Under the pieces are notes generated by a model, which made no database searches, was not told the DNA's origin, and saw only the letters and a program-made list of their open reading frames with translations. Made by a program: the position numbers and the translations under genes. 35,741 nt of DNA from Mariprofundus sp. Lineage in GTDB: Bacteria > Pseudomonadota > Zetaproteobacteria > Mariprofundales > Mariprofundaceae. This document shows positions 12,748 through 31,646 of this stretch, one piece after another. The stretch lies in assembly GCA_027019785.1 (NCBI GenBank), contig JALUWF010000313.1, positions 1 to 35,741 on the forward strand, written 5' to 3'. Every line of letters starts with the position of its first letter. Position 1 is the first letter of the stretch.

Positions 12748-12781
12748 TTAACCCGGACTATTCATGAATGGTCCGGGTTAA
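12748..12781. repeat. 34-bp near-perfect palindrome
   Basis: TTAACCCGGAC at 12748-12758 and GTCCGGGTTAA at 12771-12781 are exact inverted copies. The 12 bases between them contain ATTCATGAAT, itself a palindrome, and the only unmatched pair is T12759 with G12770, a wobble in RNA. The whole element folds into one stem with almost no loop. It ends about 30 bases before the riboswitch and about 110 bases after the Sel1 gene. It may act as a terminator for the Sel1 transcript, though no T-run follows on the plus strand, or be a REP-like mobile palindrome. Confidence 0.6.
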
Positions 12782-12810: not shown

Positions 12811-13158
12811 ATGGTTCGCCCCGTTTTGGGTGCCCAACGGTTGATTGTCACACATTTGACCACGGGTGAAACGGGAAGTCCGGTGCGGAGAATCAATAAC
12901 CAATTCGGTCAGATCGCCTGATATTTGATTTCTGGCAAGGCGCGAGCAGCGCAAAAGCGGAGCATACTTATCGTATGTGAGCATCGAGCAGCAGAGCAAC
13001 GCAGCCAGCAGTCAAATAGCAGGATGAGATGAGCGGATTGAACCAATGCCGGCGCAGCCCCCGCTACTGTAGGCCTGACAACGCTGTTTTAATCCACTGC
13101 GACACCAGTCACGGGAAGGAGGCAGCCGCGAATGAAGGCAAGCCAGGAGACCGGCCCG
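12811..13158 (+). promoter_or_regulatory. cobalamin riboswitch upstream of btuB, interrupted by an insertion
   Basis: A B12-binding leader RNA that normally lowers expression of B12 uptake and synthesis genes when cobalamin is present. Conserved blocks in order are GGTT at 12813, GGGTGCCC at 12828, GGGTGAAACGGGAAGTCCGGTG around 12864-12885 (split here as GGGTGAAACGGGAAG then TCCGGTG), AATGCCGGCGCAGCCCCCGC at 13045-13064, CTACTGTAGGCC, CCACTG at 13095, GGGAAGGAGGC at 13123, and the B12 box AGCCAGGAGACCGGCC at 13141-13156. A GACATG-CGTGT-CATGTC hairpin at 13165-13181 and a possible closing pair GCCGTC/GACGGC (12802 and 13222) lie outside the core. The family's normally short loop between the CCGGTG and AATGCCGG blocks is enlarged by about 160 bases. 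The btuB start follows at 13330. Confidence 0.9.
12905..13047. mobile_element. MITE-like hairpin element inserted within the cobalamin riboswitch
   Basis: Between the riboswitch blocks CCGGTG and GCCGGCGCAG lies a symmetrical non-coding element. AACCAAT occurs at 12898-12904 and again at 13041-13047, like a 7-bp target duplication. Inside, CCTGATATTTGATTTCTGGC (12917-12936) pairs with GCCAGCAGTCAAATAGCAGG (13004-13023) at 17 of 20 positions, and GCATAC-TTATC-GTATGT (12962-12978) forms the apex; all three pairs share the centre near 12970. It has no ORF. Removing one copy of the 7-mer and the insert restores a nearly normal riboswitch loop. The element type resembles hairpin repeats dispersed in proteobacterial genomes (recalled, not searched). 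Confidence 0.65.
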
Positions 13159-13329
13159 AGACAAGACATGCGTGTCATGTCGACGGTATGGGGCCTCGGA
13201 GGGAGACTGGTTGCCGGATGTGACGGCCTGCTCCCGAATGTTCAGCCCATTATATCCCGTATTCCTTTCTCTCTCTCGTGATTCATACCGCACATTATAT
13301 ATGCGCGGCGGGCGCGAAGGAGAAACATC

Positions 13330-15174
13330 TTGATCAAACGTACCAACAAAAATATGCAGAAATATCCATTATGGATAGCAGGAATGCTGTTGTTTGCACC
13401 AGTGCAGGCGCAAGCGACTGAAACATTAAAGCCGTTGGTGGTGACTGCGGGGCGTATCGCACAGGATCCGGCCAAGGTGAGCGCCGATGTAACTGTGATC
13501 GACCGGCAGGCTATTATCCAGTCGCAAAAGACATCAGTGGCAGATATTTTGCGTAGTCAGCCGGGTATAGATGTGGCGGCCAGTGGCGGGCCGGGCAAGG
13601 CGACATCCGTTTTTTTAAGGGGTGCGAATTCAGGACAAACGCTGGTCTTGATCGACGGTGTGCGCGTGGGTTCGGCAACGCTTGGTTCCTTTGATTGGGC
13701 CACTCTTTCCACTGCGGATGTGGAGCGCATAGAAATTGTACGCGGTCCGCAGTCTTCGCTATATGGCGCCGATGCGATGGGCGGCGTGATTCAGATTTTT
13801 ACTCGCAATGGCAAAGGTAAGCCGCGCGTGCGAGTGTACGGGGAGGCGGGAACCTATCATACAGTGTCGGGCGGTGCGAGTGTCAGCGGATCGACAGATT
13901 CCGGAGTGTCCTATGCCCTGACAGCAGATAGTTCCCGCACACGCAGCGTTTCTGCAGCAGCCCGTGGCAATGAACCAGACCCCTACCGCCAGGTCACGGT
14001 TTCCGGGCGCCTGGGCATACCTGTCGGAGATGGAACACTGGATGTCATCCTGCGTAATGTGGACGGCAAAACGGGCCTGGATGGCTTTGGGCCTGTTGAT
14101 GCACTGAATTTCACAAGTGATACCAAACAAACGGTGAGTAGTGCGAAGCTATCCTATCCGCTGGGCGATTGGCTGGATACCAGTTTGCAGGTTTCCCGTT
14201 CGACAGATGAAGTCATCAACCATGATCCTGCCGTCAGCTTCAACAACTCGGATTTTCGAACCCGCATTGATCAGATAACATGGCAGAACACACTGGACTG
14301 GCAGTCTCTGACAATGCTGGTGGGTCTGGACTTGCACTGGGACAGAGGATTGAGCGGTAGCGCCAAGCTGGATCGAACCATTATCCAGCGGGCTGGATTC
14401 GCGGCTTTGTCGTGGGATGGTAACTGGGCGAATCTAAGCGTATCGGTACGCAATGATCGTAATTCGACCAGCCGGAATAAAACCACATATCATGCCGGGG
14501 GCGTGCTTCGACCGCTGGACGGGCTGAAGCTCACAGCCAACTACGGTACGGGATTTAAGGCTCCGTCGATCAACAATTTGTTCTTTCCCGGTTTTGGCAA
14601 TCCAAACCTGGCACCTGAACAAAGTAAAGGCTGGGATGCTGGGGTTCATTATCAGCTGCAGGAAAAAGAATTTAGCACAGAAGTGAATGCAGTTTGGTTT
14701 GATCAACGGTTTACCAATCTGATTCAAACGGTTCTGGTGTTGCCGCCATTTACCTACGCTCCGCTCAATACAGGCAAAGCGCGGACGAATGGATTGGAGT
14801 TATCGACAAAGCTCGCCTATGGCCCGGTCTATGCCAGCGCCAACTGGACGTTTTTGCATGCCATCAACTCACTGGATGGCACCCGTTTGGCCAGGCGGGC
14901 AAAGGACTCCGGTAGTTTTATTGCAGGCGTGCGTATGATGGGAGTGAATGCTGAAGTGCAGTTGGATGTTGTCGGCCCGCGATTTTCTGCAGCCGGGAAT
15001 AAAAAGCCGATGCGGGGTTACCATAAGACGGATATCCGTGTAAGTTATCAACTCAATCCCGTATGGACGATTCATGCTCGTGTGGATAACCTTGAAAATA
15101 AGAAGTACGAAGAAGTATCGGGGTATAGCGTATTGGGGCAGGCATTCTATGGCGGGGTAAGCGTGGCATTGTAA
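13330..15174 (+). CDS. btuB: TonB-dependent outer-membrane cobalamin receptor BtuB
   Basis: Outer-membrane beta-barrel that imports corrinoids using TonB energy. The start is TTG at 13330 with AAGGAG 7 bases upstream. A signal peptide, WIAGMLLFAPVQAQA, is followed by the TonB box ETLKPLVVTAGR and the plug domain (KTSVADILRSQPGIDVAASG, SVFLRGANSGQTLVLIDGVR, VERIEIVRGPQSSLYGADAM). The barrel follows, with the late FKAPSINNLFFPGFGNPNL and a C-terminal strand ending GQAFYGGVSVAL. At 614 residues it is the size of E. coli BtuB. The B12 riboswitch upstream and the B12 genes downstream decide BtuB over a siderophore receptor. Confidence 0.94.
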   Translation: MIKRTNKNMQKYPLWIAGMLLFAPVQAQATETLKPLVVTAGRIAQDPAKVSADVTVIDRQAIIQSQKTSVADILRSQPGIDVAASGGPGKATSVFLRGANSGQTLVLIDGVRVGSATLGSFDWATLSTADVERIEIVRGPQSSLYGADAMGGVIQIFTRNGKGKPRVRVYGEAGTYHTVSGGASVSGSTDSGVSYALTADSSRTRSVSAAARGNEPDPYRQVTVSGRLGIPVGDGTLDVILRNVDGKTGLDGFGPVDALNFTSDTKQTVSSAKLSYPLGDWLDTSLQVSRSTDEVINHDPAVSFNNSDFRTRIDQITWQNTLDWQSLTMLVGLDLHWDRGLSGSAKLDRTIIQRAGFAALSWDGNWANLSVSVRNDRNSTSRNKTTYHAGGVLRPLDGLKLTANYGTGFKAPSINNLFFPGFGNPNLAPEQSKGWDAGVHYQLQEKEFSTEVNAVWFDQRFTNLIQTVLVLPPFTYAPLNTGKARTNGLELSTKLAYGPVYASANWTFLHAINSLDGTRLARRAKDSGSFIAGVRMMGVNAEVQLDVVGPRFSAAGNKKPMRGYHKTDIRVSYQLNPVWTIHARVDNLENKKYEEVSGYSVLGQAFYGGVSVAL

Positions 15175-16719: not shown

Positions 16720-17384
16720 GTAAACAGTTCAGTAATACGGAGCGCGAAGCTATTTACAGCGTTATTCACGAGCGACGTGACATGCGTCATTTTGCCAGCG
16801 GCAGTGTTGCGCCGGATGTCCTGCAACGGATTTTGGAAGCAGCTCATGCAGCGCCTAGCGTTGGTTATATGCAGCCATGGCGTTTTGTGCGCATCACCAG
16901 GCCGGAATTGCGCCAGCAACTGATTGCATTGGTTGAAGCAGAAAAAGACAAAACAGCCGACCAAATGGATGCGCGTAAAACCGAGTTCATGCGCTTGAAA
17001 GTCGAAGGCATTCGCGATTGCGCCGAGTTAATAGCTGTCGTACTGGCACCCGACGACGGCACAGTGTTTGGTCGGCGCACCATGCCGGAAGAGATGGCAC
17101 TGTGTTCGGTATCGTGCGCCATTGAAAACATGTGGCTGGCCGCTCGCGCCGAGAATCTGGGCATGGGTTGGGTATCATTCTTTGAGCCTGCGGATGTGGC
17201 GGCACTATTGGGCTGCCCCGAAACAGCCAAGCCGATGGCATTGCTTTGTCTGGGGCCGGTTAAAGCCTTTTACGATAAACCGATGTTGGAGCAAGAGGGC
17301 TGGCGGAAACGCGAATCGATGGATGTCGTACTAAGTGAAAACCAATTTCCTTTAGCCACAGATGCTTTGGTTTATCATGGCTGA
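16716..17384 (+). CDS. bluB: 5,6-dimethylbenzimidazole synthase BluB
   Basis: Flavin-destructase of the nitroreductase fold that breaks down FMN with oxygen to make DMB, the lower ligand of cobalamin. The sequence shows VIHERRDMRHF, AAHAAPSVGYMQPWRFVRI, the RRTMPEEMALCSVSCAIENM region that distinguishes BluB, and ENLGMGWVSFFEPADVAALL. At 222 residues it is of normal size. It overlaps btuF by ATGA, and its 3' end overlaps the first possible starts of jetA. Having BluB with CobT in the same cluster implies aerobic synthesis of true B12. Confidence 0.93.
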   Translation: MSKQFSNTEREAIYSVIHERRDMRHFASGSVAPDVLQRILEAAHAAPSVGYMQPWRFVRITRPELRQQLIALVEAEKDKTADQMDARKTEFMRLKVEGIRDCAELIAVVLAPDDGTVFGRRTMPEEMALCSVSCAIENMWLAARAENLGMGWVSFFEPADVAALLGCPETAKPMALLCLGPVKAFYDKPMLEQEGWRKRESMDVVLSENQFPLATDALVYHG

Positions 17385-18837
17385 TCAGAGTTCGATGTCC
17401 TTCAGTCACGAAGCACTGGATAGCCTGCGTAAAAATCATCCTGCATGGCGTTTATTGCGGGCGGACTCTGCGCCGTTGGTGGCCAGTTTTTTACATCGTG
17501 TATTTCTTGTGCCAAATGTTCGTGAGATTGCTCAGGTGGATTTGCAAGAGGCATTGGAAGATGAGCTTTTTGCCTTGCGGGAACGGCTCGGTGAAGATGC
17601 TTATCCGCGCGATGCGCAGGATTATCTGAATGACTGGGCCGATAATGCCCAAGGCTGGCTGCGTAAGTTCTACCCGAAAAACTCCGATGAACCGCATTAT
17701 GATTTAACACCGGCCACAGAAAAAGGTATTCGCTGGCTGGCCGGTTTAACCGAGCGCAGCTTTATTGGCACAGAGTCACGCTTGTTGACCTTGTTTGATC
17801 TGTTGCAACAAATCGTCGCAGGTAGTGAGACTGATCCCAAAGTACGCATTGCCGAATTGCGTAAAAAACGGCGCGCCATTGATGCCGAAATCAAACAGAT
17901 TCAGGCTGGTGATATTCCTCTATTGGATGAAACAGCCTTAAGAGACCGCTTTCAACAGTTTGTCATGATGGCGGGCGAGTTGTTGAGTGATTTTCGCGAG
18001 GTCGAGCAGAATTTTCGCCTGCTGGATCGGCGCGTGCGCGAACGCATTGCACTCTGGGAAGGTGGCAAAGGCGCATTGCTGGAAGATATTCTCAATGAGT
18101 GTGATGATATTACGGAATCCGATCAGGGTAAGAGTTTTCGCGCCTTTTGGGATTTTTTGATGTCCAGTTCCAGGCAGGAAGAGCTCACCGACTTGCTGGA
18201 TCAGGTGATGGCATTAACCCCGATTGCCGAATCCCGACCTGATTCACGCTTGCGCCGGGTGCATTACGATTGGCTGGAAGCAGGGGAGCATACCCAGCGC
18301 ACCGTAGCGCAATTATCCAGCCAGTTGCGCCGTTTTCTGGATGATAAAGCATGGCTGGAAAATAAGCGTATTATGGAAATCTTACGCCAGATCAAAAGCA
18401 ATGCGCGCGATACCATGCATCAACCCCCACAAGATTTGGGCATGAGCATGGATGAGATGAAAGTCGAATTCACCCTGCCGATGGAGCGCCCATTGTATCA
18501 ACCGCCATTGCAGACCGTGCTTGATGCCGTGCAATTGGAAATGGGCGCAGAAGATGCCGATGCAGAAGCCCTGTTCTCACAAGTGGTGGTCGATAAAGGC
18601 CGTTTGAAACAAGTGTTAGCTCAGGCATTGCAACAGCATTCACAAATATCATTGGCAGATTTACTGAACGAGCATCCTTTGCAACATGGCTTGGCGGAGC
18701 TGGTGGTGTGGTTGCAAATGGCCAGCGACATGACGCAATGTATGATTGATGATGGCAAGGAAGATGTAGTGCAGTGGCAAACCAATGACGGTCTGGTGAA
18801 GCAGGTGACACTGCCGCATGTGTTGTTTGTGCGATGA
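17377..18837 (+). CDS. jetA: Wadjet subunit JetA (DUF3375)
   Basis: Kleisin-like subunit of the type I Wadjet SMC complex, which extrudes plasmid DNA loops and directs cleavage of small circular DNA. The N-terminus LRKNHPAWRLLRADSAPLV, then SFLHRVFLVPNVREI and LEDELFALRERLG, is typical of DUF3375, as is the C-terminal block LADLLNEHPLQHGLAELVVW. The chosen ATG at 17377 gives 486 residues and overlaps the bluB stop as ATGGCTGA. In-frame ATGs at 17362 and 17395 are possible, and 17395 fits the family N-terminus well; none has a strong ribosome-binding site. It is the first gene of the jet block, 15 bases before the TPR-like gene. Confidence 0.9.
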   Translation: MADQSSMSFSHEALDSLRKNHPAWRLLRADSAPLVASFLHRVFLVPNVREIAQVDLQEALEDELFALRERLGEDAYPRDAQDYLNDWADNAQGWLRKFYPKNSDEPHYDLTPATEKGIRWLAGLTERSFIGTESRLLTLFDLLQQIVAGSETDPKVRIAELRKKRRAIDAEIKQIQAGDIPLLDETALRDRFQQFVMMAGELLSDFREVEQNFRLLDRRVRERIALWEGGKGALLEDILNECDDITESDQGKSFRAFWDFLMSSSRQEELTDLLDQVMALTPIAESRPDSRLRRVHYDWLEAGEHTQRTVAQLSSQLRRFLDDKAWLENKRIMEILRQIKSNARDTMHQPPQDLGMSMDEMKVEFTLPMERPLYQPPLQTVLDAVQLEMGAEDADAEALFSQVVVDKGRLKQVLAQALQQHSQISLADLLNEHPLQHGLAELVVWLQMASDMTQCMIDDGKEDVVQWQTNDGLVKQVTLPHVLFVR

Positions 18838-18852
18838 AGAGAAGAGGTTTAT

Positions 18853-19599
18853 ATGCGTTACTTTAATCGAGAGATGTTACTGGATACTTTTACAACGGAA
18901 GACAGTGATGAAAGACGTAAACTCATGGCATCTGTGGATAAAAATCAGGTAGAGCAGGATATTCTGGATGATACTGGTGAGGTATTTCGTCCATTAGCGT
19001 GTACATATGAGGTCATCGAAGATAAAAACTATGCCAAGATGAAAGAAGAGGATAAGTCATTATTGGCTCAAATTTTTGAGTGGGTACAGGGCAGTAACGT
19101 TGAGGCTAGGCGTGGATTAAAATACTTGCAAAAGTTGAAGAAAAAATACCCCCGGGTGCCGGTTATTTACAATTTTATGGGTGTTGCCTATAAAACGCTT
19201 GGTAAAGAAGTGAAGCGCCGCCATGTTATCAAAGAGACCAGCAAAAAGTTCCCGCACTATGTATTTGGAAAAATATCATTGGCTGAATATTACTTAAACG
19301 CCGGGCATCATGAAGAGATCCCTGAGGTTTTTAACCATAAGCTTCAACTTTATATGCATTACCCCAACGCGGGGGAGAATCCCGTATTTCACGGTGTTGA
19401 GGTGCAATCATTTTATACCGTGATAGGTAGGTATTACGCTAGAAATAAGCAACTTGCTCACGCAATCAAATGTTATTTTATAGTTGAAGGGGCAGATCCT
19501 GAATGTCCGCATCTAAATGTGCTTGCCCGAGAGATTCTTGTTGCAGAAACAGCAGCATTAGTCGCTAGCAGTTTCGGATCACTCAATAAAGATACATAG
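18853..19599 (+). CDS. TPR-like helical protein embedded between jetA and jetB
   Basis: I do not recognise a named family. The 248-residue product has a charged N-terminus, then helical pairs resembling TPR units: KKKYPRVPVIYNFMGVAYKT, KKFPHYVFGKISLAEYYLNA and VIGRYYARNKQLAHAIKCYF. No catalytic motif or signal peptide is seen. ATG at 18853 has AGAGG about 6 bases upstream; the gene begins 15 bases after jetA and ends 9 bases before jetB, so it is in the operon. It is AT-rich compared with its neighbours: lines 19021-19080 and 19141-19200 hold 19 and 24 G+C of 60, against 30 in 18301-18360 of jetA. It could be an adaptor for the Jet complex or a passenger. Confidence 0.8.
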   Translation: MRYFNREMLLDTFTTEDSDERRKLMASVDKNQVEQDILDDTGEVFRPLACTYEVIEDKNYAKMKEEDKSLLAQIFEWVQGSNVEARRGLKYLQKLKKKYPRVPVIYNFMGVAYKTLGKEVKRRHVIKETSKKFPHYVFGKISLAEYYLNAGHHEEIPEVFNHKLQLYMHYPNAGENPVFHGVEVQSFYTVIGRYYARNKQLAHAIKCYFIVEGADPECPHLNVLAREILVAETAALVASSFGSLNKDT

Positions 19600-19608
19600 G
19601 AGCTTTTC

Positions 19609-20220
19609 GTGGATGAATTAGAGCTACAAGCAAGTACGCAGCGAAATCCCAAGTTATCTGCCGTGGTGATTGCCTTATGCAAAGGCATGATTGATCGGGA
19701 GGCGGATGGTCAGTTGTGGCAATGGCTGTTGAATATGCAGATTACGGTGTCTGACTATGTTGAAACGCTGGGTTTGGATCTTATTCTGGATGAAGCAGAA
19801 GGCTATGCGTTTTTGCGGGCGCGGGAGTATGAGGCGGAGAGTGATAAATTGCCGCGTTTGATTGCACGTCGGCAGCTATCGTTTCATGTCAGTCTGTTGT
19901 TGGCTCTGCTGCGTGAAAAGATGGCGGAATCGGATGCGGCCGGTGGTGAGGCGCGGGTGATTGTGTCGCGCGATGAGGTATTGGAAATGATTCGCATCTT
20001 TTTGCCAGAAGGCAGCAATGAAGTGCGGCTGATTGATCAGGTCGATAGTTACATCAATCAGATTGTGAAGATGGGCTTTGCACGGAAGCTGAAGGGTTCG
20101 GATAAAATGCTGGAGTTGCACCGTATCATTAAATCCTTTGTCGATGCACAGTGGTTGGCGGAATTTGATCAGCGCTTAGATGAATATCGCAAGCAGTTAC
20201 TGCCGCAAGGGGCGAACTGA
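19609..20220 (+). CDS. jetB: Wadjet subunit JetB (DUF4194)
   Basis: Kite-like (MukE-like) subunit of the Wadjet SMC complex that binds JetA and DNA. Features are [59 protein letters not shown] and the winged-helix-like [19 protein letters not shown], all typical of DUF4194. The start is GTG at 19609 with AGGAG 6 bases upstream, giving 203 residues. The stop overlaps the jetC start as TGATG, so the two are translationally coupled. Confidence 0.9.
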
Positions 20221-23200
20221 TGGAGCCCACCTTAAACCTTGAATTTGTACAGGACGATGCCTTAACAGGCTTTCGCCTCAAACGCCTGGAAGTGTTGAAC
20301 TGGGGAACCTTTGATAAAACAGTGTGGTCCTTTCATCTCAACGGCAAAAACGCCTTGCTGACGGGTGATATTGGTTCCGGGAAATCTACCTTGGTGGATG
20401 CTGTAACTACCTTGCTAGTGCCCGCTCACCGCATTGCCTACAATAAAGCGGCGGGTGCAGCCTCCAAAGAACGCGATTTGCGATCCTATGTATTGGGGCA
20501 TTATAAATCCGAACAGAGTGAATCGGTGGGTACAGCTAAACCGGTGGCCTTGCGGCAGGCGGGTAGTTACTCGGTCATTCTGGGTGAGTTTCATAATGAG
20601 GGTTATGATCAAACGGTCACCTTGGCGCAGGTGTTCTGGTTTCGCAAACCACAAGGCCAGCCGGAGCGTTTTTATGTGGTGGCGGATCACAGTTTAACCA
20701 TTCAACATGATTTCGGCGGCTTTGGCTCTGAGATGGCTGCATTGCGCAAACGCTTGAAGCAGCAGAATGCCAATGTGTTTGATGCATTCCCTGCTTACGG
20801 TGCGTTTTTTCGCCGTCGCCTTGGTATTGAAAATGATCAGGCTCTGGAATTGTTTCATCAAACCGTATCCATGAAATCCATTGGCAATCTGACTGAATTT
20901 GTGCGCGGACATATGTTGGAACCATCCGATGATGTGGAGCAGCGCATTCATGATTTGATTGCTCATTTTGATGATCTGGATCGCGCCCATAAAGCGGTAC
21001 TGACAGCAAAAAAACAGGTGAGCTTGCTGCAACCGTTGGTGGCGGATTGTCATCAACATGAGAAGCTTGCGCATGAGAAAGATGAACTGGATGGCTGCCG
21101 TAATGCCTTGCAGGCGTATTTCTCAAACCTGAAATCAGAGTTGCTGACAGCGCGGATTAAAAAATTAGATAGCGAACTGGAGCGATTGCAGCAACGCATT
21201 GTGCAGCTCACGGATAAGGTTGAGCAGGGCAAGCAGCAAGAGCGCGAACTGGAGCGGGCGATTGCTGATCAGGGTGGTGATCGTATTGCCGCGTTGGAAC
21301 AAAAAATTGCCGAAAAAGAAGCTGAGAAATCGCGTTGTTTGCGTCGAGCTAAATCTTACGATGATCTCATCGCTCAGCTTGAGCTTGCAGCCGTCAAAGA
21401 TGTCGATGCATTTTTGCAACATAAACAGGATTGTTTGGCCATGTTGCTGACGCTGCAGGATGAGCAAGCGCAAGCGCAAAACAGCATGAATGCATTGGGG
21501 GCGGATTTGGCAGCGGGCAAGCGGGAATGCGAAGCGCAGCAACGTGAGATCACGAGCCTGAAACAGCGCAAAAGCAATATCCCTGAACAACAAATCGCCA
21601 TTCGCGCGCGATTGTGTCGCGAGTTGGGCGTGGATGAGCAGGCCATGCCGTTTGCGGGTGAACTGATTCAGGTGCGCGCGCAGGAATGCGATTGGCAGGG
21701 GGCGGCGGAACGGCTGTTGCATAACTTTGCCTTGTCCATGTTGGTTTCCGACCAGCACTATGCCCAGGTGGTTGAATGGGTGAATGAGAACCATTTGAAA
21801 GGTCGATTGGTGTTTTATCGGATGCGCGCGCATGTGCAAACCCATAGCCCACAGCATGCGACATCGTTGGCGCATAAATTGGAAGTAAAACCGGATTCGG
21901 TGTTTTACGATTGGTTGCAGCAAGAATTGGCACTGCGCTTTGATTATGCATGCTGTACGGATATGGAAACATTTCGCAGGGAAAGCCGTGCCATCAGTAT
22001 CACCGGTCAGATCAAGGCGAAGGGTGGCCGCCATGAGAAGGATGACAGGCATAAACTCAATGATAAACGGCATTTTGTCTTAGGCTGGAGCAATGCCGAG
22101 AAAATTGCCGTGCTGGAAGCCGAAGCCAACCTGGCGCAGCAGGCATTGGTCGCATTGGGTAAACAGATCAGCGATTTGCAGCAGTCGCTTGAAATGAAGC
22201 GAGAGCATTTGTCGCTGCTCAATAAATTGGAAACCTATACCGATTTTCAGGATATTAACTGGCGACCCCTGGCCGCTGAAGTGGAGCAGCTAAGCGCGGA
22301 AAAGGCCAAACTGGAGGCGGCATCGGATCAGCTGCGTTTGTTGGCCAAGCAGCGCGAAACAGTGTTGCAGGTATTAGCCAAGGATGAAGAAGCTCTCTTA
22401 AATCGCCGCGCGGAATGCGCCAAAACCGAGCAAAAACGGGATGATGCAGCGGCGATGTATCAAGCCTTGCAAGCAATGCTGGCAGAACATGATGAGGCAC
22501 TGGATGCGTATGCGGAACGGCTGGATGCGCTTGCCAAAACAGTGCTGGGCGATGTGAAGCATACGGTGGAATCATGCACCAGCCATGAACAGGCATTGCG
22601 CGCCGCATTGGGCAAACAGATCCAAAGCGTAGACGGAAAATTATCACGTTTGCGGGATCGCGTGATTAAAGCCATGACTGATTTTCATCAGGCTTATCCC
22701 TTATTGACGCAGGAAATGGATGTGAATGTGCGCGCGGCGCATGAATATAGAGCCTTGCTGGATGGCTTGAATGCCGATGATTTGCCGCGATTTGAAGCAC
22801 GTTTCAAAGATCTGTTGAATGAAAACACCATTCGGGAAATTGCCAATTTTCAAAGCCAGTTATTGCGCGAACGCGAGACCATCAAAGAGCGTATTGAGCG
22901 CATCAATGAATCGTTGGTGCAGATTGATTATGTCGAAGGTCGCTATATCACTCTGCTGGCGCAGGCCGCGATTGATTCTGAAATTCAGGGCTTTCAACAA
23001 GATATGAAGGCGTGTACCGAGGGCAGTGTCACCGGCTCGGAAAGCGAACAATATTCAGAAGAAAAATTCTTGCAGGTACAGAAAATCATTGAGCGTTTTC
23101 GCGGTCGTGAGACCTATATCGACTCTGATATCCGTTGGTTGCGCAAGGTAACGGATGTGCGCAACTGGTTCCGCTTTGCCGCATCCGAACGCTGGCGTGA

Positions 23201-23615
23201 AGATGATTCGGAATATGAACATTACGCCGATTCCGGTGGTAAATCAGGCGGCCAGAAAGAAAAATTGGCCTACACGATTCTGGCCGCCAGCCTGGCCTAT
23301 CAATTCGGCCTGGAATGGAATGCCGTGCGTTCACGCTCGTTTCGTTTTGTGGTGATTGATGAAGCTTTCGGTCGCGGCTCGGATGAATCCGCAGAATATG
23401 GTTTGCGCCTGTTCAAGCAGCTAAACCTGCAACTCTTGATTGTCACTCCCTTGCAAAAAATCCACATCATTGAACCGCATGTGCAGCATGTTGGCTATGT
23501 CAGCAATGATGGCGGAACCAACTCCAAATTGCGCAATTTATCCATAGAAACCTATCGCCAGGAGAAGCAGCAACGTGAGGAAAATAAACCTACTAGTTCC
23601 AATTTGGAAGACTGA
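20220..23615 (+). CDS. jetC: Wadjet SMC-like ATPase JetC
   Basis: SMC/MukB-like motor that drives loop extrusion on plasmid DNA. Walker [14 protein letters not shown] lies at residues 49-61. Long coiled-coil arms occupy the middle (Lys/Glu/Gln-rich, such as [20 protein letters not shown]) around a hinge-like globular region near residues 480-640. The ABC signature [14 protein letters not shown] is near 1005 and Walker [18 protein letters not shown] near 1040-1056. At 1131 residues it is the length expected for JetC. It follows jetB by a 1-base overlap. The absence of an SbcC-type zinc hook CxxC supports JetC over SbcC. Confidence 0.93.
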
Positions 23616-23616
23616 T

Positions 23617-24984
23617 ATGACTGAACACCAAACTGTCGAATACAAGCAGATATGGAAAGATGCATATTTGAAATGGATTTGCGGCTTTGCTAATGCGCAG
23701 GGCGGTGTGCTGGTGATCGGGCGCAATGATGCGGGGGTGGCGGTAGGCGTAGCCCATGCTGGTAAGCTGCTGGATGATATTCCGAACAAGGTTCGGGATA
23801 TTTTGGGCATCATGGTTGCTATCCGATTGCTGGAGGAAGAGGGCAAGGCGCTGTTGGAAATTGCCGTGGATGCCTATCCCAGTCCGATTAATTATAAAGG
23901 CGAGTATTATTTCCGAAGTGGCAGTACCAATCAGTTACTCAAGGGTGCGGCACTGGATCGTTTTCTGCTACGGAGATACGGACGTACCTGGGATGGCTCG
24001 CCTCTGCCGGGATTGAAGGCGGATGATCTGGATGGGCGGGCATTTGATCAATTTCGGAAACTGGCGTTGCAAAGCAAGCGGTTGCCGGAGGCTGTACTCA
24101 ATGAAGATGACCGTTATTTACTGGAAAAACTGCATCTGGTGAATGGCGATTATCTGACCCATGCGGCTGCGTTGCTCTTCTATGACGAACCGGAACGATT
24201 GGTCGGTGGTGCTTATGTGAAGATTGGTTATTTCGAGAATGATGCCGATCTGCGTTATCAGGATGAGGTGCAGGGATCTTTGCTTGTGCAGGTCAATCAA
24301 GCGATTGATATTCTCAAAAGCAAATACCTGCGGGCATGGATCAGCTACGAAGGCTTGCAGCGTATCGAGACCTTTCCTGTGCCTGAGCCGGCACTGCGCG
24401 AAGCGGTGCTGAATGCGGTGGTGCATAAGGATTATGCCAGCAGTATTCCAATTCAGATCAGCGTTTATCCCAACAAATTGATGATATGGAATCCGGGTGA
24501 GTTGCCACAAAACTGGACGGTGGAGAAGTTGCTGGATAAACATGCGTCGCAACCATTTAATCCCGATGTTGCGAATGTGTTTTTTCGCGCCGGTATGATT
24601 GAATCGTGGGGGCGCGGTATTGAACGCATTATGCAGACATGTGCGGATGCCTGTGTGCCAACCCCGGAGGTTAGCAGCGATGTGAATGGGCTTTGGATGA
24701 CGTTCCATTTTTTGCCTGAACATCAGTTGAACAGCGGCCAAGGTAAAGAGGGAAGCACTGCCCAAGAAGGGTTGGGTGAAAAGTTGGGTGAAAAGTTGGG
24801 TGAAAACCGCCGACGGATACTGGAGGCAATGCAGGCTGAACCGACGGTCTCTATTGTTTCGTTGTCAGCATTGTTGAGGATGAGTAGTACAGCGATAGAA
24901 AAAAATATCCGTTGGCTAAAAGAACATGATTTAATCCGTCGCGTGGGGCCTGCCAAGGGTGGTTATTGGCAGGTGCTGAAATGA
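23617..24984 (+). CDS. Schlafen/AlbA_2-type ATP-binding protein with winged-helix tail, embedded in the jet operon
   Basis: Resembles the AlbA_2 (Schlafen-like, divergent AAA_4) family, often annotated as a transcriptional regulator or RNA-binding protein. N-terminal block: VEYKQIWKDAYLKWICGFAN then AQGGVLVIGRNDAG. The middle holds FPVPEPALREAVLNAVVHKD and WNPGELPQNWTVEKLL, a GHKL-like ATP-binding half, and SWGRGIERIM. A C-terminal winged helix ends LIRRVGPAKGGYWQVLK. A 12-base unit is repeated three times at 24772-24807, encoding LGEKLGEKLGEN as a linker. ATG at 23617 lies one base after the jetC stop, and the stop overlaps jetD as ATGA, so it is inside the operon. It could regulate the operon or act in defence. 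The product is 455 residues. Confidence 0.85.
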   Translation: MTEHQTVEYKQIWKDAYLKWICGFANAQGGVLVIGRNDAGVAVGVAHAGKLLDDIPNKVRDILGIMVAIRLLEEEGKALLEIAVDAYPSPINYKGEYYFRSGSTNQLLKGAALDRFLLRRYGRTWDGSPLPGLKADDLDGRAFDQFRKLALQSKRLPEAVLNEDDRYLLEKLHLVNGDYLTHAAALLFYDEPERLVGGAYVKIGYFENDADLRYQDEVQGSLLVQVNQAIDILKSKYLRAWISYEGLQRIETFPVPEPALREAVLNAVVHKDYASSIPIQISVYPNKLMIWNPGELPQNWTVEKLLDKHASQPFNPDVANVFFRAGMIESWGRGIERIMQTCADACVPTPEVSSDVNGLWMTFHFLPEHQLNSGQGKEGSTAQEGLGEKLGEKLGENRRRILEAMQAEPTVSIVSLSALLRMSSTAIEKNIRWLKEHDLIRRVGPAKGGYWQVLK

Positions 24985-26186
24985 ACAGGACTCGTCCTGC
25001 TAATATGAAGAAACAGCTTGAGCGAATGTGGGTGCGAGGGGATATATGCCGGGCGGCGGTGAAAGATGGGGTCGTGTTCCCTCTTACACTTCGCTTAAAA
25101 CAGCCGACATCCAAGGCCATGCTGGATGATTTGGCCGGTACGCAAGACTGGGTGAAAGAGGTGCAGGCCTATACCAATAAGCACCATATCACATTGCATT
25201 GGCAGAGTATCAATCATCGTGTGCTGGGTCGACAGCAATTGCCTGCGCATATTGTGCTGGATACGCCACAACAGGCGGCGCGTTTGATTGGTAAATCGGA
25301 AGCATTAAAACAGTTCACCATGCTTTATCGGCAAAGTATTAAAACACTTGCCGCGTTGGAAGGCTGGCTGCTTCAGTATCCATTAAAAGTGCTGGCATTG
25401 GCCGATGAGTGGCCGCAACTGTTGGCATTGTGCGCATGGATGCAGGTACACCCGAATCCACGCATCTATTTGCGGCAAGTCGATGTACCGAAGGTGGATA
25501 GTAAATTTATTGAACAACATCGAAAAGTGCTGGCGCAACTGTTTGATATTGTATTGCCTGTGTTTGCCGTGAATGATGATTATACAGGGGTGGCAGGGTT
25601 TGCGCGACGATATGGCTTTCTGGATAAGCCAGCCATGATTCGCGTGCGCCCTTTGGATGATGATATTCCGTTGCTGCTAAGTGATGGCGAACAAGATGCG
25701 GCGATCACAAGCAAGGCTTTGGCTCGCTTGCATCAGGATGTACGCAGCCGGATCGAGCGGGTATTTATTGTTGAAAATGAAATCAACTACCTCGCATTTC
25801 CGGCAGTGCCTCGCGCCTTGCTGATATTTGGTAAGGGCTATGGTTTTGAAGCACTCAAACAAGCGCAGTGGCTGCATGAGTGTAGCATGTATTACTGGGG
25901 CGATTTGGATACGCATGGCTTTGCCATTTTGAATCAACTGCGTACGAGCTTACCGCAAACAACTTCTTTTTTAATGGATAAACAGACATTATTGGCGCAT
26001 CAACATGCTTGGGGTACAGAGCCCAGGCAGGAGACAAAAGAACTGAAATATTTGAATGCGGATGAGGCAGCGGTATATGATGTTTTGCGTAATAATACAC
26101 TGGGCGATCAACTGAGGCTGGAACAGGAACGCATTTCTTTTGGCTATGTGAAAAACATATTATTAGCCACAGATGAACGCAGATGA
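24981..26186 (+). CDS. jetD: Wadjet nuclease subunit JetD (DUF3322 + DUF2220 Toprim)
   Basis: Topoisomerase VI-like endonuclease subunit that cuts plasmid DNA recognised by JetABC. The N-terminal DUF3322 part includes WVRGDICRAAVKDGVVFPL and the C-terminal DUF2220 Toprim part has RVFIVENEINYLAFP with the metal-binding Glu (about residue 266), and SMYYWGDLDTHGFAILNQLR with the DxD (about 307). ATG at 24981 overlaps the upstream stop (ATGA), giving 401 residues. The last six codons, ATDERR and the stop, are read from the left arm of an inverted-repeat element (26164 onward), so the natural C-terminus may have been slightly changed. Confidence 0.91.
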   Translation: MNRTRPANMKKQLERMWVRGDICRAAVKDGVVFPLTLRLKQPTSKAMLDDLAGTQDWVKEVQAYTNKHHITLHWQSINHRVLGRQQLPAHIVLDTPQQAARLIGKSEALKQFTMLYRQSIKTLAALEGWLLQYPLKVLALADEWPQLLALCAWMQVHPNPRIYLRQVDVPKVDSKFIEQHRKVLAQLFDIVLPVFAVNDDYTGVAGFARRYGFLDKPAMIRVRPLDDDIPLLLSDGEQDAAITSKALARLHQDVRSRIERVFIVENEINYLAFPAVPRALLIFGKGYGFEALKQAQWLHECSMYYWGDLDTHGFAILNQLRTSLPQTTSFLMDKQTLLAHQHAWGTEPRQETKELKYLNADEAAVYDVLRNNTLGDQLRLEQERISFGYVKNILLATDERR

Positions 26187-28400: not shown

Positions 28401-31400
28401 ATGGATATCACTAAGACAGAATTAAGGAAAGCATTTTCAAGTACTTACTTTTCACGTGGTGAAGCTTATTTTCGTAATGGGAAGGTGCTGGCCGTGGAGG
28501 TATGCGAAACAGGGTGCCTGGAAATAAGTGTTACATCAGAAGTGGAAGGGAGGGGTAAGCCTTATACGCAGGATATTACGATTGAAAAACATAGCGCGAA
28601 GGGTCCACTGGATGTTGATGGATTTTGTAGTTGTCCTGTGGGGTATAACTGCAAGCATGTTGTGGCTGCCTGTTTGGAATATCTGGAAGTCTTGAGTGAT
28701 CATCCGGTGCTCACTGATGAGCCCGAGCAGGTCTCCCTGGCTTGGCTGGAAACATTTTCGAAGTCATTTCAAAAGGTTGATGCTGCCCAGGGGAGCAATG
28801 AAAAGTTTCTGGTGTATGTGCTTGATCTTGATCGTGCTAAGCAGCAATTAACCGTTGATGTTTGTCTTACCAATGTCTTGAAACGGGGTGGGTTATCCAA
28901 AGGTAAGTCCATCAAGGTGAACGACCTGTGTTATTATCCACCATCCTTTGCGAAAACGGTGGATGTTGAGGTGGCCAAGCTTATTTCAGCAAGCAATGAT
29001 CAATATGGTTATTACGCGGTGAAATATATTCAGGGAAAAGCAGGTTATTTGGCATTAAAGCAGATATTGGAAACGGGGCGTTGCTATTGGAAAAATCACC
29101 AGACGGAACAGATTCTGCGGGAAGGGAAGTCAAGAGCGTTTGCCTGTGAATGGAAATATGATGAATATGGGTGTGCCAATTTAAATATTTTAATTACACC
29201 CAAAGCGACCGTAATCAAAACCGATCCGCCCATGTATTGGGATGAATCGACGCATGAAGTTGGCTTGCTTAACAATGTCCCTTATACCACATCGCAGTTG
29301 GAGATGTTGATGCAAGCACCTGCTATTCCAGCATCGCTTGTCGATGAATTTAGTCAGCGTGCGGTATTGTCTATGCCTGAGCATCTGTTGGCTCCTCCGA
29401 AAGCCATTGAGATGGAGGTGATTAAAGAAGCTGAGCCTAAAGCGCAGGTGTTACTGTATGTTAAACACCATCAGGGCATTGATTATCGTCTGGCGCGGTT
29501 GCGTTTTAGCTATGCTGAACATGAACTGGCTGTCTTTCCACAGCATCAAGAAACTAAAATAATCGAAGCGCATAAAATCATCAATGTTTTCAGAGATATG
29601 GCGGCAGAAAGCCTTTTCTTGGGAGAGCTGCACCGCATTGGTTTAGTCGATTGGATGTATGCTAACGAGAAGGATTGTAATTTCTTCTTTAGCGAAAGAA
29701 ATGAAGTAGCCAATGACACATTATGGGCTGACTTTATGATCAATGGGATACCAAGCCTGGAAGCCGATGGCTGGTCTATTGAGGTGGCGGATAACTTTAA
29801 TATGCAGTTGCATGAAGCTGATCAGTGGCATGCAGATATTGAGGAAAAGGGAAATGACTGGTTTAGTTTAAGTTTTGACATCGAGATTAACCAGCGGAAA
29901 CAAGCCCTGTTGCCGTTGATAACGAAGGTGTTGGAACATTATGATCTGAATGATCTGCCTGAAACCTTGGTGGTGAATTTGGGCGGTGGTCAATACCTGC
30001 AGTTGCCCAGCGCGCAGATAAAGCCGGTGCTGGAAATTGTTTATGAGCTTTATAACCAAGAGCGGCTATCTGATGATGGTGTGTTGGAGATGTCGCATTT
30101 TGATGTTGTTCGTTTAGCTGATTTGGAGCAACAAAACTCGAATATACAATGGTGTGGCGGTGAGGAGCTTAGATCGCTTGGCAAGCAGTTGAAGGATTTT
30201 GAAGGCATTCAGGCGGTGCAATCGCCACAAGGTTTGCAGGCTGAATTAAGGGATTATCAGCAACAGGGGCTGAATTGGTTGCAGTTTTTACGCAGTTATC
30301 ATCTGAACGGTATTCTGGCTGATGATATGGGGCTGGGGAAAACGGTACAAACCCTGGCGCATCTGCTGTTGGAAAAAGAACAGGGGCGCATGGATAAGCC
30401 CTGTTTGGTTATTGCGCCGACCAGCCTGATGGGCAATTGGCGGCGCGAAGCTGCTGTGTTTGCACCAGAGCTAAAAGTGCTGATTTTACAAGGCTCTGAT
30501 CGTCACCAATATTTTGAACATATTGAGGATTATGACATTGTTTTAAGCACTTACCCGCTATTGGTCAGGGATGATGAGGTGCTTTTAAGCCATGAATATC
30601 ACATGCTTATATTGGATGAAGCACAAGTGGTGAAAAATCCGAAATCCAAAGCCGCAAAAATTATCAGACAATTTAAAGCAGCGCATAAAGTATGTTTGAC
30701 AGGCACGCCGATGGAGAATCATCTGGGCGAATTGTGGGCGCTGTTTGATTTCCTCATGCCGGGTTTTTTGGGCGATCTTAAACAATTTAACAGCTTGTTT
30801 CGTAAGCCGATTGAGATTCATGGCGATGGTGAATTGCAACAGCGCTTAGTGAATCGTGTGAAGCCATTTATGTTGCGCCGCAGCAAAAGTGAAGTGGCCT
30901 CGGAATTACCGGAAAAAACAGAAATCACACGCATGGTGAGCCTTGGAAAACAGCAAGCCGCTCTGTACGAAAGCATTCGTATTGCGATGGAAGATAAGGT
31001 GCGAAAAACCATTGCCACCAAGGGCTTAGCGAGAAGCCATATCACGATTCTCGATGCCCTGTTGAAGCTGCGCCAAGTCTGTTGTGATCCGCGTATTCTA
31101 TCCTTAAAGCAGGCACAAAAAGTCCAGGAATCAGCCAAGCTGGATATGTTGATGGAGATGTTGCCTAAAATGCTGGAAGAGGGGCGGCGGATATTGATTT
31201 TCTCACAGTTCACTAAAATGCTGGCTTTGATTGAAAATGAGATAAAAACGCAGCATATCAGCTACACCAAGCTGACAGGGCAAACACGCAAACGTGATGC
31301 GGTGATTGATACATTCAAACAGGGCAAGGCCGATGTGTTCTTGATTAGTCTGAAAGCCGGTGGTGTGGGGCTAAATTTAACGGAAGCCGATACCGTGATT

Positions 31401-31646
31401 CACTACGATCCCTGGTGGAATCCGGCGGCTGAAAATCAGGCCACCGACAGAACACACCGCATTGGACAGGATAAAGCCGTATTTGTGTATAAGCTGGTGG
31501 TGGAAAACAGCGTGGAGGAAAAAATCATTGCCATGCAGGTTAAGAAAAAAGCCTTAGCTGATGCCATTTACCAACAGGGTAAGGGAAAAGATGAGCTTGT
31601 GATCACCTCAGATGATATGCAGGCGCTGTTTGCACCGTTGACGTAA
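28401..31646 (+). CDS. SWIM zinc-finger SNF2-family helicase/ATPase
   Basis: A 1081-residue SF2 translocase of the SNF2/RapA type that moves on duplex DNA. The SWIM zinc finger FCSCPVGYNCKH is at residues 75-86 (C76, C78, C84, H86). The SNF2 core has ADDMGLGKTVQTLAHLL (K647), the DEAQ box at 739-742 in LDEAQVVKNPKSKAAK, LTGTPMENHLGELWALF, then helicase C with ILIFSQFTKMLALIENE and motif VI QATDRTHRIGQ (1013-1023). It is AT-rich against the cob genes (19 G+C of 60 in 29161-29220; 35 of 60 in 33661-33720). ATG at 28401 has AGGGAG 12 bases upstream. Similar proteins occur in ordinary genomes and in defence islands; the role here is open. Confidence 0.92.
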   Translation: MDITKTELRKAFSSTYFSRGEAYFRNGKVLAVEVCETGCLEISVTSEVEGRGKPYTQDITIEKHSAKGPLDVDGFCSCPVGYNCKHVVAACLEYLEVLSDHPVLTDEPEQVSLAWLETFSKSFQKVDAAQGSNEKFLVYVLDLDRAKQQLTVDVCLTNVLKRGGLSKGKSIKVNDLCYYPPSFAKTVDVEVAKLISASNDQYGYYAVKYIQGKAGYLALKQILETGRCYWKNHQTEQILREGKSRAFACEWKYDEYGCANLNILITPKATVIKTDPPMYWDESTHEVGLLNNVPYTTSQLEMLMQAPAIPASLVDEFSQRAVLSMPEHLLAPPKAIEMEVIKEAEPKAQVLLYVKHHQGIDYRLARLRFSYAEHELAVFPQHQETKIIEAHKIINVFRDMAAESLFLGELHRIGLVDWMYANEKDCNFFFSERNEVANDTLWADFMINGIPSLEADGWSIEVADNFNMQLHEADQWHADIEEKGNDWFSLSFDIEINQRKQALLPLITKVLEHYDLNDLPETLVVNLGGGQYLQLPSAQIKPVLEIVYELYNQERLSDDGVLEMSHFDVVRLADLEQQNSNIQWCGGEELRSLGKQLKDFEGIQAVQSPQGLQAELRDYQQQGLNWLQFLRSYHLNGILADDMGLGKTVQTLAHLLLEKEQGRMDKPCLVIAPTSLMGNWRREAAVFAPELKVLILQGSDRHQYFEHIEDYDIVLSTYPLLVRDDEVLLSHEYHMLILDEAQVVKNPKSKAAKIIRQFKAAHKVCLTGTPMENHLGELWALFDFLMPGFLGDLKQFNSLFRKPIEIHGDGELQQRLVNRVKPFMLRRSKSEVASELPEKTEITRMVSLGKQQAALYESIRIAMEDKVRKTIATKGLARSHITILDALLKLRQVCCDPRILSLKQAQKVQESAKLDMLMEMLPKMLEEGRRILIFSQFTKMLALIENEIKTQHISYTKLTGQTRKRDAVIDTFKQGKADVFLISLKAGGVGLNLTEADTVIHYDPWWNPAAENQATDRTHRIGQDKAVFVYKLVVENSVEEKIIAMQVKKKALADAIYQQGKGKDELVITSDDMQALFAPLT

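Follow-up and report, generated by a model that had tools for sequence, protein, structure and literature searches.

A MITE-like hairpin element probably inserted in the L4 arm of a btuB cobalamin riboswitch of Mariprofundus

The window analysed here, a stretch of 35,741 nucleotides from a Mariprofundus sp. (contig C313 of genome G000; GenBank JALUWF010000313.1), carries a cobalamin riboswitch upstream of btuB. A palindromic, non-autonomous MITE-like element of 136-140 bp has most probably inserted in the apical loop of its P4a helix, leaving a switch that likely still senses B12. The riboswitch is the sole Rfam match at gathering in the window, with a score of 84.5 bits against a gathering threshold of 31.5. 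The full RF00174 model (1-189) is aligned around the insert, in agreement with an earlier sequence-only reading of this stretch, according to which both halves of the aptamer are otherwise intact. The coordinates of the features are collected in Table 1.

Table 1. Features of the riboswitch locus and of the Wadjet genes in the window (position 1 is the first nucleotide of the window)
Feature	Position	Strand	Basis
Cobalamin riboswitch aptamer (RF00174) with insert	12811-13173	+	Rfam cmscan, 84.5 bits, E 1.3e-19, model 1-189
P4 5' strand CCGG	12880-12883	+	Paired in the Rfam alignment
L4 T-loop 5' half TGC	12884-12886	+	Rfam alignment; L4 as T-loop from the accessible part of PMC10907184
P4a 5' strand GG	12887-12888	+	MFE pairs with 13043-13044; pairs 1 and 2 of P4a standard in all 19 btuB-type riboswitches
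AACCAAT, left copy of the target-site duplication	12898-12904	+	Single copy in the empty site L058
Inserted hairpin element	12905-13040 (12901-13040 if the ends are CAAT...ATTG)	+	Comparison with L058; R1 match at 12916-13025
Conserved core AAGCGGAGCATAC-loop-GTATGTGAGCA	12955-12983	+	Pattern match; near-invariant in the 19-copy alignment
AACCAAT, right copy	13041-13047	+	Supplies the P4a CC (13043-13044) and the T-loop 3' half AAT (13045-13047)
P4 3' strand CCGG	13049-13052	+	Rfam alignment
L5 kissing loop CCCCCG, intact	13058-13063	+	Identical in 19 of 19 genus riboswitches
Candidate P13	13192-13208	+	L13 GGAGG at 13198-13202
btuB, TonB-dependent vitamin B12 receptor	13330-15174	+	Best NCBIfam match TIGR01779, E 1.4e-107 (360.7 bits, under the model's curated cut-off of 599.7)
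jetA	17362-18837		PADLOC
jetB	19609-20220		PADLOC
jetC	20220-23615		PADLOC
jetD	24966-26186		PADLOC

The direct 7-bp repeat AACCAAT described in the earlier reading is present at both ends of the insert, and the 20-bp arms said to pair at 17 positions were recovered in the predicted RNA fold of 12901-13040, which pairs 17 of the first 20 positions. As btuB-sense RNA this segment folds at -56.8 kcal/mol (z -5.1), and none of 200 shuffles was as stable; the opposite-strand RNA gave -44.1 kcal/mol (z -3.2), with one of 200 shuffles equally stable. In the riboswitch L058 of a same-genus relative, G007, the corresponding stretch is GGAGAATCAATAACCAATGCCGG; AACCAAT stands there once, and the insert is absent. 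Taken without the L4 segment, the aptamers of G000 and G007 are 94% identical, the closest pair for G000 among the 19 compared. Because G007 has the same site with a single AACCAAT and no insert, the window appears to be the filled site and G007 the empty one, and the repeat is read as a duplication arising from insertion, not as chance. The ends of the element are ambiguous: a 7-bp duplication gives a start at 12905, whereas homology gives one at 12901, 4 nt away, which would leave AAC alone as the duplication; an 8-bp version is possible with one mismatch. Terminal inverted repeats (CAATTCGGTCAGATC / CAATCCGCTCATCTC) are present but imperfect. The longest ORFs inside 12905-13047 encode 45 aa (minus strand) and 35 aa (plus strand), and transposase coding capacity is absent. 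A blastn search with the insert found no second copy in G000 at E<=0.001 and no match in plasmid and phage records at 1e-5. A search of 12880-13060 against Rfam (E<=10) yielded one 10.7-bit match to an unrelated lncRNA family, which was taken as chance.

Related copies were searched for with R1, a covariance model built from 19 class copies, the five copies from btuB-type leaders included. The core columns of this alignment are near-invariant partly because the copies were picked by the core pattern, whereas the arms were not so picked. In the RNAalifold consensus, 14 of 22 pairs show a two-sided change in at least one copy. R1 matched the window's insert with 75.7 bits, the window copy itself belonging to the training set. 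At E<=0.1, with rough E-values and up to 150 candidates scored per genome, the model gave a sum of 177 matches in 20 of the 23 genus genomes. Five are in G000, the leader copy is the only one in each of G003, G010 and G017, and no match was found among the candidates scored in G002, G020 and G021. The heaviest family load in the genus was observed in G022, with 75 R1 matches in a genome of 2.0 Mb. The empty site together with these related copies, present in G000 and in further genomes, supports the proposal of a MITE-like hairpin within a riboswitch loop. That proposal was to be abandoned if there were no other copies and the same arm were conserved in relatives; the nearest relative lacks the insert.

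Duplications were checked in the 12 class copies with both ends recognised (11 of 30 loci, plus L057). Clear 8-bp duplications flank L057 (GAAAATTC) and L305 (GTTTTATT), and a T-rich one of the same length, TTTTTTAT, surrounds a 152-bp unit at L308; the other nine showed no exact duplication. Class copies such as L305 have inverted ends GTAACTGTTCAGATTG ... CTGAACAGTTAC. The clear family duplications are thus of 8 bp against 7 bp in the window, which counts against the explanation preferred here.

The insert combines a target-site duplication of 7 bp and its empty site with terminal inverted repeats, dispersed copies and the lack of a transposase ORF, as a MITE does. The end motif GTAACTRTTCAGNTTG was found in 19 of the 78 class genomes (its reversed control, twice) and not in G000. 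No transposase lay between two element ends in the 30 loci read, in only 11 of which the second end was recognised. An ORF about 530 nt from the L305 copy, which we take to be transposase-like, was considered as the parent and rejected, as it is not bounded by the element's ends. Like the bacterial MITEs described in the accessible part of PMC10969869, the insert is short, palindromic and dispersed, duplicates its target and contains short ORFs only. It differs from them in that its core is conserved well past the terminal repeats and that no parent insertion sequence was found in the loci read. The same part of that paper raises the idea that MITEs might themselves form riboswitches, a different matter from a MITE inside a riboswitch, and it links BOX elements of Streptococcus pneumoniae, a small repeat, to a riboswitch-like structure. 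There the repeat itself is the proposed switch, whereas in the window the repeat lies within a known one. Judged by title and opening of the abstract, the open-licence literature searched yielded no paper reporting that a MITE had entered a cobalamin riboswitch and none on the core described below; the listed papers that contain a word of the core looked unrelated.

The sequence-only reading had placed the insert in L5 and suggested that it could alter switching through the L5-L13 contact. According to the accessible part of PMC10907184, L4 meets L6 through a T-loop contact at the P3-P6 junction, and the P5 loop kisses that of P13; the L4 T-loop contact and the L5-L13 contact are also named in what is accessible of PMC5359240. 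In the Rfam structure line the insert is inside the loop of the CCGG/CCGG hairpin, and the loop of the next hairpin is CCCCCG. Because the latter fits L5, for which the accessible text of PMC10653944 gives the consensus UCCCG, the insert is placed in L4, the T-loop arm. A P5a/L5 reading of the arm was ruled out by the Rfam alignment and by the L4 and L5 descriptions in the same portions of PMC10907184 and PMC10653944.

The downstream hairpin with loop GGAGG is a candidate for P13/L13 by our own assignment. A script placed this P13-like hairpin in 18 of 19 riboswitches, with the loop GGAGG in 16 and GGTGG in two. For G017 it picked an earlier, wrong CTCGG, and ACCTC-GGAGG-GAGGT was recognised further on by eye. 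The inner three pairs hold in all 18 script-placed rows, and the fourth is mismatched in the window only. The window thus has both L5 and a downstream hairpin whose loop can meet it. Since the insert is in L4, and L5 and the P13/L13-like hairpin are intact, the insertion need not harm the L5-L13 contact. Compared with RF00174 riboswitches, the window shares the full model, the L5 CCCCCG and the P13/L13-like hairpin, and differs in that its L4 arm holds a mobile hairpin.

The Rfam search gave 21 cobalamin riboswitches in 19 of the 23 genus genomes. Nineteen of the window's type, one per genome, were compared; they are called btuB-type from alignment of the ORF behind each with the window's BtuB, this alignment serving as the sole annotation, and two shorter riboswitches were left out. 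The latter are a second cobalamin riboswitch in G018 (L077) and G004 (L078), each followed by a gene whose start resembles, as we presume, a ribonucleotide reductase. The empty-site riboswitch L058 scores 114.3 bits, 30 bits above the window's. Between G000 and G007, the partial BtuB proteins share 59% identity when gaps and ragged ends are scored as differences, and the protein nearest to that of G000 is from G020 (62%); because of this, btuB leaders and receptors may have been reshuffled.

Further observations were made in the window outside the riboswitch. A near-perfect, loopless palindrome, TTAACCCGGACTATTCA/TGAATGGTCCGGGTTAA, lies between the upstream gene and the riboswitch (12748-12781). 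PADLOC models identify Wadjet (type I) defence genes at 17362-26186. Two further products are encoded between them, one of 248 aa that PADLOC did not match and one of 469 aa (ORF 23575-24984) that partly matches prokaryotic Argonaute models (best E 1.1e-18). Downstream of the Wadjet genes, a 1081-aa protein (28401-31646) matches the PADLOC models for DpdE and for a ZorD-like helicase.

Of the two outcomes envisaged earlier for the insert, a tolerated helix extension fits best, as a P4a of at least two pairs is possible in all 19 btuB-type riboswitches. Their L4 segments, 19 to 164 nt long, start with T followed by GC (16) or by GA, AC or AA (one each) and end before CCGG with AATT (15), AATG (2) or AAGT (2). 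All 19 have standard first and second P4a pairs, and 14 have a standard third; over the first three pairs, 52 of 57 cells are standard, compared with 26, 8 and 25 after sliding of the 3' side by 1, 2 and 3. Because the pair types differ among the 19 (GC, AT, CG, GT, TA and TG), the helix appears to be kept through two-sided changes. P4a of G007 consists of GG/CC only, closing AGAATCAATAA, and in both G007 and the window a mismatch follows straight after GG/CC. In the MFE fold of 12880-13055, P4 is kept, 12887-12888 pair with 13043-13044 and the element folds on its own; the same fold closes T-loop residues as wobble pairs (12884-13048 and 12885-13047). The method cannot model a T-loop, and the fold therefore speaks neither for nor against one.

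From these folds and from the relatives, the following course of events is suggested. The element most probably entered the apical loop of P4a, a peripheral helix within L4 of the btuB riboswitch, and its insertion duplicated AACCAAT, as the empty site shows. The right AACCAAT would then re-supply the 3' strand of P4a (CC) and, beside P4, the 3' half of the T-loop (AAT). In this way the T-loop could re-form, with the element as a long, self-folded rod on a naturally variable arm. With P5/L5 and the P13/L13-like hairpin in place, B12 sensing has probably survived, and any change in folding or mRNA processing would be modest.

Long L4 arms of another kind occur in three further genomes, in btuB-type riboswitches with L4 segments of 148 nt (G004 and G018) and 145 nt (G011; L067, L073 and L075). 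A blastn search with the window's insert listed nothing in these arms. Used as query, the G018 arm matched G004 with 99% identity over 150 bases and G011 with 86%, and at E<=0.01 it has matches, many of them partial, in 22 of the 78 class genomes, these three included. The segment is multi-hairpin and is near-identical in G004 and G018, though by eye their aptamers differ more. A 90-nt segment with similar ends is present in G081, of another genus. The class gave 73 riboswitch matches; of 29 loci tried outside the genus, 11 had a readable L4, and two of these represent one and the same stretch of G081. The L4 arm thus seems to grow repeatedly.

The element is also found at a second place in the btuB leader. 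In G003, G010, G016 and G017 it lies 3' of the aptamer and before the P13-like hairpin, in the same orientation, and cmscan placed a cobalamin riboswitch beside the element in L002-L005. A blastn search of the 23 genus genomes with 12925-13020 (E<=0.01) gave six places. One is in the window, four are in the leaders of G016, G003, G017 and G010, and the sixth is a match of 36 nt in G013 (L006), where cmscan found no cobalamin riboswitch. The closest relatives of the window copy by blastn are therefore these four btuB-type leader copies, and there was no nearer dispersed copy in the 23 genomes. A FastTree analysis of 23 copies (22 hand-chosen of the 177 genus matches and one from another genus, over about 110 nt of alignment) joined the five leader copies in one clade (0.889), with the window copy beside that of G016 (0.795); the node joining these two to G003 and G010 is weak (0.372). 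One element lineage thus appears to occupy two positions of one leader. By our own after-the-fact estimate, the number of copies expected in a leader by chance is 0.04 (177 copies, a 500-nt leader and about 2.4 Mb), or about 0.3 if the element can insert in only about an eighth of the genome. On this estimate, two independent leader insertions would be unusual, though not extreme in the latter case.

The same observations can be read in other ways. The element might have been co-opted, altering btuB regulation through RNase processing or slower folding of the aptamer and being kept by selection. The occupation of two leader positions by five copies, all in the sense orientation, would fit this, as would the three genomes in which the leader copy is the sole R1 match, and ERIC elements can change mRNA decay, as stated in the accessible parts of PMC10969869 and PMC2229807. 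The outer arms of the downstream copies differ, however, and the leaders of G007 and of G001, whose aptamer is the nearest to that of G016 (97%), contain no copy. In G002, moreover, an apparent half-copy at the same place in the leader, seen by eye only and not detected by R1, looks decayed. We consider such a role unlikely. Somewhat less likely still is that the insertion weakens the L4-L6 T-loop contact and deregulates btuB. So stable an element could nucleate competing folds, and the window has the lowest Rfam score of the 19 btuB-type riboswitches, but a drop in score is expected from the length of the insert alone. P4, both T-loop halves, L5 and the L13-like loop are all present, and the 145-148 nt segments of the three other genomes lie at the same spot.

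Two further readings deny the insertion itself. An inherited expansion of the L4 arm without transposition could draw on the variable length of this arm in the genus and on the other long arm type, common to a different genus. It is already contradicted by the empty site with its one AACCAAT in the nearest relative and by the homology of the insert to a dispersed repeat family, and has very little probability. An artefact of assembly or binning is conceivable for a genome in 413 contigs, but it accords poorly with the precise duplication, with flanks conserved on both sides and with the failure of blastn to find a second copy in G000, and is the least probable of all. Insertion of a MITE-like element in a switch that continues to sense B12 is thus the reading retained. 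The two leader positions and the shared core described next are more novel and less certain than the insertion itself.

The core of the element recurs in several phyla. Its consensus is GGAGC-N-TAC...GTA-N-GTGA, often with AAGGC on one side and AACGC on the other. At least 119 stretches of genome contigs contain the exact pattern AAGCGGAGCATACT-N3-6-TATGTGAGCAT; by our own arithmetic, the entire collection should yield about 0.002 matches by chance. Among the matches listed, about 89 of 119 belong to Alistipes/Rikenellaceae, counted by record title, and the remaining 30 include Nitrosomonas, Burkholderiales, Pseudolysobacter, Legionella, Erwinia, Deltaproteobacteria, Anaerolinea, Clostridia, Listeria, Bacteroidales and Mariprofundus; the outer arms of the matches listed vary by taxon. 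Hairpins with the same core are frequent in the Rikenellaceae records (L085-L203), and some are repeated close together (L108, L118 and L179).

The flanks were tested at 132 sites in L085-L203 (136 minus four of the window's genus). At 128 of them the sequence extends 60 bases to either side of the core, and 120 were left once sites with the same inner 25 bases had been merged. Of these 120, 40 have AAGGC within the 60 bases before the core (mean 11.5 and maximum 20 in 200 shuffles), 29 have AACG[CA][AC]G after it (mean 3.6, maximum 10) and 26 have plain AACGC after it (mean 13.5, maximum 21); the words were picked after viewing the flanks, and kinship within a taxon inflates the counts. Most of the 120 sites lack the flank words. 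A second pattern, GGAGCTTAC-N2-8-GTAAGTGA, was found in 25 of 398 phylum genomes, 10 of the 25 being from the window's family; no genome contained its reversed control. Twenty places outside the window's class were read. AAGGC lies within 45 bases before the pattern at 12 of them, AACGC within 45 bases after it at 13, and both words at 10; at least three of the 20 (L317, L329 and L330) look like an unrelated sequence.

An ERIC copy between cusF and cusC of an E. coli strain is AAGGCGACAAGCGAGTGAATCCCCAGGAGCTTACATAAGTAAGTGACTGGGGTGAGCGAACGCAG. At its apex this copy shares GGAGCTTAC...GTAAGTGA with the class copies; it folds with GA/GA next to the core stem and shows the same order as the window, AAGGCG - core - AACGCAG. 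The window's GGAGCATAC...GTATGTGA equals GGAGCTTAC...GTAAGTGA except for one compensated pair. The likeness does not extend over the full length, the R1 match being a local one of 21 nt (16.2 bits, E 0.0016 over 888 bases), and the outer arms of ERIC, also known as IRU or RU-1, show no visible similarity to those of the window element. ERIC termini are described as 5'TA3' in the accessible part of PMC2229807, a 2007 review, whereas the window copy has none; the same part of the review found no experimental support for the means by which ERIC moves. We put forward common descent of ERIC and the window element as a proposal, the R1 signal being weak. More broadly, and with a little less than even confidence, we suggest that the insert belongs to a hitherto unrecognised, bacteria-wide superfamily of hairpin elements with a shared RNA-like core (in full, AAGGC ... 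GGAGC-N-TAC loop GTA-N-GTGA ... AACGC) and taxon-specific arms, of which ERIC would be the enterobacterial branch. One Mariprofundus lineage would have settled in the btuB leader and entered two of its hairpin arms, that of L4 and the one preceding P13, at which an added hairpin would leave the switch unbroken.

Closely similar aptamers with and without a 140-nt hairpin on the T-loop arm provide a natural test of how a riboswitch survives an insertion. If the homology of the core is true, ERIC gains relatives across bacteria in which to look for the mobilising enzyme and for what the core does.
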